NCBI RefSeq assembly: GCF_002157855.1
Contig: NZ_CP020880.1
Coordinates: 3,720,001 to 3,784,000, forward strand
Origin: Sutcliffiella horikoshii
GTDB lineage: Bacteria; Bacillota; Bacilli; Bacillales; Bacillaceae_I
Length of the DNA stretch: 64,000 bases
Direction: 5' to 3'
Part shown: piece by piece, positions 1,656 to 25,705 of the stretch
How the letters are laid out: each line of letters opens with the position of its first letter
How positions within the stretch are numbered: position 1 is the first letter of the stretch
Notes under the pieces: generated by a model
The model's input: only the letters and a program-made list of their open reading frames with translations
Database searches by the model: none
Told to the model about the DNA's origin: nothing
Made by a program: the position numbers and the translations under genes

Positions 1656-1714
1656 GATTTGTTCCTCCTTGTTAATTAGCTCTATTTAGAAAAAGTAATG
1701 TTTTTACGTATACT

Positions 1715-1845
1715 TCCTGATGACTTCCGTTCCAGATGTTCGCTTTCCGCGGGACGTGTGCTTGAGCCTCCTCGCTTCGCTGTGGGGTCTCAAGCTACCG
1801 TTATCCCCCGCTGGAGTCTCACATCTTGCACTCCAGTCATCAGGA
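1715..1845. repeat. 131-bp dispersed palindromic repeat, copy 1
   Basis: This 131-bp element lies between gntZ and gntP and has a second copy of identical length at 25503-25633. Its outer arms are perfect inverted repeats (TCCTGATGACT at 1715-1725 and its complement at 1835-1845). An inner hairpin is formed by GCTTGAGCC and GGTCTCAAGC around a CTCGCTTCGCTGTG loop. About three quarters of the bases match copy 2. Where the paired arms differ, both sides change together. It looks like a REP- or MITE-like non-coding element; I see no reading frame in it. Confidence 0.8.
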
Positions 1846-1892
1846 GGAATTTTCATTAACTATGACGTCTCTCGTAATCTACTTAAAATAAT

Positions 1893-17397: not shown

Positions 17398-17680
17398 TGA
17401 TCTGATTGTGGCTGATTGCTTACCCCTAGCTCCATTTTCTTCTGATTCTGGGCACCATTGCGGCTCTTTGATTACCCCTAGCTTTATTTTCCGCTTCTCC
17501 AGGGCACCATAGACACTCTTTGGTTACCCCTAACTTCATATTCCGCTTCCCCCGGGCACCATAAACACTCTTTGGTTACCCCTAACTTCATATTCCGCTT
17601 CCCCCGGGCACCATAGACACTCTTTAGTTACCCCTAAGTCCATTTCCCCTTGATTCCGGGCAACATACATTGCGGCTCTT
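17398..17680. repeat. 52-bp-period tandem repeat tract A
   Basis: More than five units with an exact 52-bp period: GGGCACCAT-like words begin at 17450, 17502, 17554, 17606 and 17658, each with TACCCCTA about 25 bases on. The two central units are nearly identical and the outer ones are diverged. The tract fills most of the gap between the yvjA start and the prfB terminator. Read on the minus strand the unit begins GGTAAC and has CCCG 24 bases later, the same phase as in tract B near 41.4 kb. No coding potential is seen. Confidence 0.85.
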
Positions 17681-19018: not shown

Positions 19019-19128
19019 AAATAGCTTTTTCAAAAGTTGATCTGAAATACAACAGCTAGACCTATTGGGAGTACTAATTTTCTATTTTCGGTTATTCAAA
19101 CGTTGGTTTAAAAAGAACTATCTTAAAG
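19019..19128. repeat. Duplicated ~110-bp element, copy 1
   Basis: First of two direct copies with a 152-bp offset between prfB and secA. Shared blocks include ATAGCT-TTTCAAAAG at the left and TTATTCAAACGTTGGTTTA at the right. Left and right ends form imperfect inverted repeats (AATAGCTTTTTCAAAAG against the complement of the right end), a MITE-like layout. I saw no third copy in this window. Confidence 0.6.
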
Positions 19129-19170
19129 TAGTAAAAACTCCGGAAAACAGTCATTCAGCACTTTATCCTG

Positions 19171-19280
19171 CAATAGCTATTTCAAAAGCTAATCACAAAC
19201 AGAACGGCTGGGTCCATTGGGATTCCTACATTTCCATTTTCACTTATTCAAACGTTGGTTTAAAAATCGCTATTTCAGAA
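19171..19280. repeat. Duplicated ~110-bp element, copy 2
   Basis: Second copy, about three quarters identical to copy 1. Its end inverted repeats match better (GCAATAGCTATTTCAAAAG against GAAATAGCGATTTTTAAAC). Together the copies fill most of the 500-bp gap; the remainder shows only the secA terminator. Confidence 0.6.
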
Positions 19281-25384: not shown

Positions 25385-25502
25385 GTAAAAGTATTGTTAA
25401 GAATTTGTGAATTGTATTGGATTGGCTTGTTCTTGTGGGGTGAAACAAGTATATGCGTGGGGGTCGGGAAAATTTCATTAAAATTGATTATTCTATTTAA
25501 CT

Positions 25503-25633
25503 CCCTGTTTCCTTTCGTTCCAGACGTTCGCTTTCCGAGGGGCGTGTGCTTGAGCCTCCTCGCTTCGCTGTGGGGTCTCAAGCTAACGCTATCCCCCTCC
25601 AGAGTCTCACGTCTTGCACTTCAGTCAACAGGG
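25503..25633. repeat. 131-bp dispersed palindromic repeat, copy 2
   Basis: Same length and layout as 1715-1845: outer arms CCCTGTT / AACAGGG, the same inner GCTTGAGCC hairpin, and compensatory changes in the arms. It lies between the last flagellar gene and hpf. It is non-coding as far as I can see. Confidence 0.8.
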
Positions 25634-25705
25634 TAGATAGCTTACTCAATAACACCTCACGATATAGCGAAATTAATAATAAAAACTCTCCAAAGTATTG
25701 GAGAG

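Follow-up and report, generated by a model that had tools for sequence, protein, structure and literature searches.

The hairpin-forming sequence between gntP and gnd of Sutcliffiella horikoshii most likely (probability approximately 0.7) belongs to a family of non-autonomous, palindromic interspersed repeats that populates Bacillales chromosomes and works in an ERIC-like manner. The window, a 64,000-nucleotide stretch of contig NZ_CP020880.1, contains two copies of the element (Table 1). These align without gaps (1712–1844 with 25500–25632) at 88% identity, their starts being 23,788 bp apart, in agreement with the original prediction of two copies separated by 24 kb. The complementary segments quoted there are present: the outer arms TCCTGATGACT and AGTCATCAGGA of copy 1, the arms CCCTGTT (25503–25509) and AACAGGG (25627–25633) of copy 2, and the inner pairs AGATGT (1734–1739) with ACATCT (1821–1826) and GCGGG (1749–1753) with CCCGC (1807–1811) of copy 1, which read AGACGT/ACGTCT and GAGGG/CCCTC in copy 2. 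A length of exactly 131 bp does not describe a fixed unit: the stem of copy 1 spans 1713–1847, and relatives vary where the apical loop and the core have gained or lost bases.

Table 1. Positions of the element copies, their stems, and the neighboring genes in the window
Feature	Position	Strand	Remarks
Element copy 1, subfamily S1	1713–1847	+	One long imperfect hairpin
Outer arm, left, TCCTGATGACT	1715–1725	+	gntP-facing side
Outer arm, right, AGTCATCAGGA	1835–1845	+	
Middle stem, left, GTTCCAGATGT	1729–1739	+	Partner 1821–1831
Middle stem, right, ACATCTTGCAC	1821–1831	+	
Conserved core common to subfamilies	1745–1816	+	TTCCGCGGG ... GAGCCTCCTC loop GGGGTCTC ... CCCGCTGGA
Element copy 2, subfamily S1	25501–25635	+	88% identity to copy 1
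gntP, GntP gluconate permease	309–1655	−	Pfam PF02447; ATG after AAGGAGG
gnd, 6-phosphogluconate dehydrogenase	1893–2999	−	Pfam PF03446, PF00393; upstream of gntP; reading frame probably starts further inside

Folded alone, copy 1 reaches −64.8 kcal/mol (z −7.1) on the + strand and −61.4 kcal/mol (z −5.3) on the − strand, and none of 200 shuffles matched its fold energy on either strand. The outer arms vary from copy to copy, yet pair within each copy, and the middle stem contains double changes at 1736/1824, 1737/1823, and 1738/1822. Both flanking genes are antisense to copy 1, which is separated from the start of gntP by 57 nt and from the stop of gnd by 45 nt. No curated Rfam model matched the element or its surroundings at the gathering threshold, and membership of a known RNA family was rejected on this basis. 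A weak match to the caiA RNA model on the − strand (1653–1707; 29.4 bits, cut-off 55.5) covers the gntP leader beside the element and is probably due to chance. An integron attC site was also rejected, since in the alignments the outward GTT...AAC orientation of the ends misfits that expected of attC. For S1, insertion of the core into pre-existing outer-arm palindromes was discarded: most copies share the ends ACTCCCTG...CAGGG. Elsewhere in the window (17416–17675 and 19020–19273) lie tandem units of 52 bp and a direct repeat of 102 bp with a spacing of 152 bp, neither of which was matched to the element.

Two is the correct count of copies inside the window, but the genome holds more. A BLAST search of the host genome with the element returned 42 matches, and profile searches, covering 0.8 Mb each of the host (G000) and a sister species (G001), returned 99 and 48, respectively; extrapolation from the former gives roughly 400–500 copies per host genome. 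A core pattern of 23 fixed bases matched 169 times in the host and, across Bacillales, in 66 of 199 genomes and 33 of 95 genera, while the reversed control gave 0 matches in both searches. A search of 41 genomes (host and relatives) found matches in 29. The named genera with matches include Sutcliffiella, Rossellomorea, Peribacillus, Metabacillus, Halobacillus, and Halalkalibacter, and all named matches listed belong to Bacillus-type genera. Two plasmid records match the element; the phage sequences searched contain no match. A literature search by sequence strings and terms found no description of the family, which has no name in the databases or papers searched.

The family comprises three subfamilies (S1, S2, and S3) with a common core, CGCTTTCCGCGGG ... 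GAGCCTCCTC-loop-GGGGTCTCA ... CCCGC-GGAGTCT, and different arms. Both copies in the window belong to S1; the S2 arms are CCGCTGTTGATTTCCGCAAATGG ... CAACAGC, and the S3 arm is CGGTTGATTTCCGTTCCAGGCGC .... Many units are composites, in which S3 is followed, after approximately 67 nt, by an inverted S2. A longer S2 variant, its right half extended by approximately 56 bases, and a shorter form without the apical part also occur (G000:C1, 1,827,718–1,827,917; 1,907,896–1,908,099; 1,947,237–1,947,435; 1,708,764–1,708,854). Several relatives contain head-to-tail arrays of 3–7 copies with a period of approximately 165 bp, including about 30 bp of copied flank (G008:C12:491240–492370, G009:C87:84481–85441, G004:C45:20012–20641, and L039 of G015).

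Covariation above background, the absence of which the original prediction had named as its refutation, is present in an alignment of 39 S1 copies. Double changes affect 23 of 49 pairs (shuffles, 12.5 ± 1.8), and 45 compensatory events map to the tree, compared with 3–12 when the partners are slid. Among these 39 copies, pair 1754/1801 is A-T in 23 and G-C in 16, pair 1724/1836 is C-G in 26 and T-A in 12, and pair 1720/1840 is T-A in 21 and A-T in 9. Under a home-made, R-scape-like null, one S1 base pair is individually significant at E<0.05, and base pairs dominate the top ranks (10 of the top 41; p=7e-16); the equivalent S2 test is dominated by subfamily structure. RNAalifold returned only 14 pairs from a mixed-subfamily alignment because stem registers differ among subfamilies, which were therefore analysed apart. 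For S1, compensatory and broken changes stand at 22:15 on internal branches but 23:72 on tips (p=2e-4), and for S2 at 31:45 and 26:97 (p=0.004), a contrast that the parsimony reconstruction, in resolving ties to paired states, may favor; for S3 it is not significant. A relative excess of paired changes on internal branches is what would be expected if spreading depends on the fold.

Copies avoid coding regions, with one of 91 host units lying in an ORF called by a crude gene caller, compared with 87.7% coding DNA, and sit in the gaps between operon genes. Many sites are filled in one of G000 and G001 and empty in the other, two species with approximately 93% identity at the gntP-gnd locus. Elements in the cggR-gapA and gapA-pgk gaps are found in G000 only; the glycolytic operon cggR-gapA-pgk-tpi-pgm-eno (G000:C1, 3,676,815–3,682,128; genes recognised from their first codons) has four elements in its gaps in the host and two in the sister species. 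Copy 1 has orthologous copies at the same site in six other species of the genus, and the sister species has a diverged element at the copy 2 site as well. In the 14 species in which the gntP-gnd gap could be read, it contains an S1 copy in seven, a different tandem repeat in three, and only 18–28 bp in four, the gap being 214–241 bp long in the others. The tandem repeat, a 21/42-bp unit, ATTTTGGCACGAACTCGATGC, stands in place of the hairpin element in G007 (L331, 2148–2240), G008, and G004. For the variant present at this locus in G012 and G015, a search of the DNA examined found no donor copy. Junctions at sampled empty sites vary from short overlaps to short replacements, their precision limited by flank divergence, and display no constant target-site duplication; insertion by an enzyme is for this reason something we infer and do not see. 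Among 147 matches in 1.6 Mb, none belonged to a parent insertion sequence sharing the ends of the element.

Strand preference differs among the subfamilies. All 27 S3-containing units are in the leading-strand orientation, with replication direction taken from gene strand bias, GC skew, and the element strand switch near 2.05 Mb, and the 12 that lie between convergent genes, where transcription is symmetric, share the same replication polarity (12/12; p=1.5e-8 for the S3 strand test). Left ends of S3 often lie just after intrinsic terminators. This polarity suggests replication-coupled, single-strand mobility. Between leading-strand genes in tandem, lone S1 and S2 copies lie mainly antisense (33:11), in many cases with the next start codon 38–52 nt past the left end, and have no such polarity in convergent, divergent, or lagging contexts. 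As their polarity is found mainly in leading-strand tandem genes, replication alone does not explain lone S1 and S2 copies. It is very improbable that the S3 composites are instead selected polar chromosome signals, like skewed architecture motifs, with an orientation that reflects function and not insertion. Their uniform replication polarity would fit this, as would their greater frequency in the 1.7–2.1 Mb region than at 3.5–3.9 Mb, but S3 presence differs between sister species, and short recognition motifs differ from these units, which measure approximately 350 bp, adjoin terminators, and have no known protein partner.

With regard to the mobiliser, the host genome encodes a single Y1 protein of 230 amino acids and no other, which appears RAYT-like by length and motif. 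The element may be a REP/BIME-type substrate of such a Y1 HUH transposase, with folded single strands nicked on the lagging-strand template and pasted elsewhere and the S3-S2 inverted pairs corresponding to the BIME/REPIN form, a doubtful but possible reading. Y1 transposases work on the lagging-strand template (PMC6006769), and replication-strand polarity and inverted pairs fit. Among 41 relatives, a RAYT-type Y1 protein is present in 10 of 10 genera with many copies, compared with 3 of 12 genera without, although G006 carries element copies and only a broken RAYT-type gene. The association is looser in the 199 genomes, where RAYT occurs in 42 of the 52 that match the core pattern at least twice and in 82 of the remaining 147. 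Furthermore, six element-bearing genomes lack any Y1 domain, including G194 (24 matches) and G097 (near-identical cores), no element adjoins the RAYT genes in the 3-kb loci inspected, and the unit is approximately 135 bp in length compared with the 20–40 bp of REP/BIME. RAYT as the sole mobiliser, strong among the 41 relatives, is weakened by each of the 199-genome association, the Y1-free genomes, and the lack of RAYT-adjacent elements, and was set aside; a RAYT-type Y1 transposase is the leading but unproven candidate. Because some copy-rich genomes, or those with near-identical copies, are Y1-free and S3 is perfectly polarised, the possibility that machinery other than a Y1/HUH transposase copies the hairpins at the replication fork, using folded single strands, was also considered, and is judged rather unlikely.

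What maintains the fold bears on two further alternatives. The original prediction had taken the compensatory changes to imply selection on an RNA or cruciform, and not just a recent copy; the covariation is real, but that inference goes too far for a repeat that is dispersed and insertionally polymorphic. In orthologous G000/G001 copies, broken pairs number 35 in S2, compared with 39.5 ± 2.1 by random placement, and 16 in S3, compared with 27.2 ± 2.0. Elements diverge less than the adjacent 40 bp (S1, 14% and 23%; S2, 10.5% and 23%; Wilcoxon p=1.6e-4 over all 28 sites), a contrast that alignment of diverged flanks may inflate and that is unexpected for a purely decaying repeat without selection or gene conversion. 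Neutral decay after insertion was withdrawn as an explanation, the flanks used earlier having been mostly coding and adjacent intergenic DNA diverging more than the elements. At gntP-gnd the fold is kept in seven species with seven doubly changed pairs, which may result from selection, from conversion, or from hairpin-templated repair; divergence there is 13% within the element and 24% in the remainder of the gap. A cis-acting regulatory RNA under host selection, either a leader or an intercistronic processing element, would account for the kept fold, the slow divergence, and the S3 deficit of broken pairs, and for the antisense placement of lone copies approximately 40 nt before the next start in tandem leading-strand genes. 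Set against this, several hundred copies adjoin unrelated genes, sister species differ in presence (as in two of the four glycolytic, gap-operon copies), the gntP-gnd gap has a different tandem repeat in three sister species and nothing in four, S2 orthologs break pairs near chance, and Rfam has no match, which together make this reading improbable. The covariation could also be mutational in origin, with template-switch repair (quasi-palindrome correction) or gene conversion matching the arms in the absence of selection for folding. Long hairpins and multi-copy families are subject to both processes, and 6 of 29 orthologous sites compared are mixed, several by core or subfamily replacement with the fold kept. 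Some cores are swapped between species, and gene conversion can therefore also produce apparently compensatory changes. However, paired changes in the outer and middle stems occur at scattered single pairs, and broken pairs build up on tips (72) instead of being repaired, an argument limited by the preference of the parsimony rule for paired states; a purely mutational origin seems rather unlikely. Low element divergence and swapped cores leave selection, gene conversion, and hairpin-templated repair inseparable, and propagation constraint, conversion, repair, and site selection are all possible in part.

Among described repeats, the family is ERIC/MITE-like. ERIC sequences are intergenic, imperfect palindromes of approximately 127 bp that number from tens to hundreds, and the element is likewise a long imperfect palindrome, dispersed and intergenic; we know of no ERIC mobiliser. 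In contrast to ERIC, the element occurs in another bacterial order and has its own core, three subfamilies, S3-S2 composites, and replication-strand polarity. It was not filed as ERIC because its named matches are all in Bacillus-type genera and ERIC is enterobacterial, a separation by host range. ERIC copy numbers are 30–711 (PMC10969869). The bcr1-bcr18 repeats of the Bacillus cereus group, compared here by description, are intergenic and several are MITE-like; approximately half of their copies are transcribed as part of UTRs or of operon gaps (PMC3446304). The element resembles bcr1-3 in being intergenic, MITE-like, and probably part of transcripts (PMC3446304, PMC10969869), but bcr1 is described as B. 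cereus group-specific, while the present family spans many other genera. Bhal-1 of Bacillus halodurans, a 74-bp structured stem-loop family of 36 copies (PMC2267715) that similarly has no other name, may be a relative, again by description. REP/BIME/REPIN sequences share the palindromic form, intergenic location, inverted pairs, strand-related behavior, and usual presence of a RAYT-type gene in the same genomes, and differ in the length and RAYT relationships given above; no invariant GTAG or CGTC tag is found at the element ends in the alignments. Classical MITEs are also short, palindromic or bounded by terminal inverted repeats, and polymorphic in insertion, but the element is without constant target-site duplication. 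Membership of REP/BIME and of classical MITEs thus each fails at least one tested feature.

For an ERIC-like repeat, the folded strand would be the substrate of replication-coupled, probably single-stranded, copying or insertion. Only folding-competent copies would go on spreading, so that the fold would be kept along propagating lineages. Copies that interrupt coding sequence or lie too close to a ribosome-binding site would be lost and those in operon gaps would survive, where they would probably be transcribed as mRNA hairpins and may tune processing or stability. If this is correct, many Bacillales carry an ERIC-like repeat, in up to several hundred copies per chromosome, seated in operons as basic as that of glycolysis, with consequences for how transcript structure is interpreted, for typing methods based on repeats, for genome assembly, and for the calling of small ORFs. 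S3, with its strict strand polarity, would then provide a testable handle on the movement of ERIC-type repeats, for which no transposase is known.
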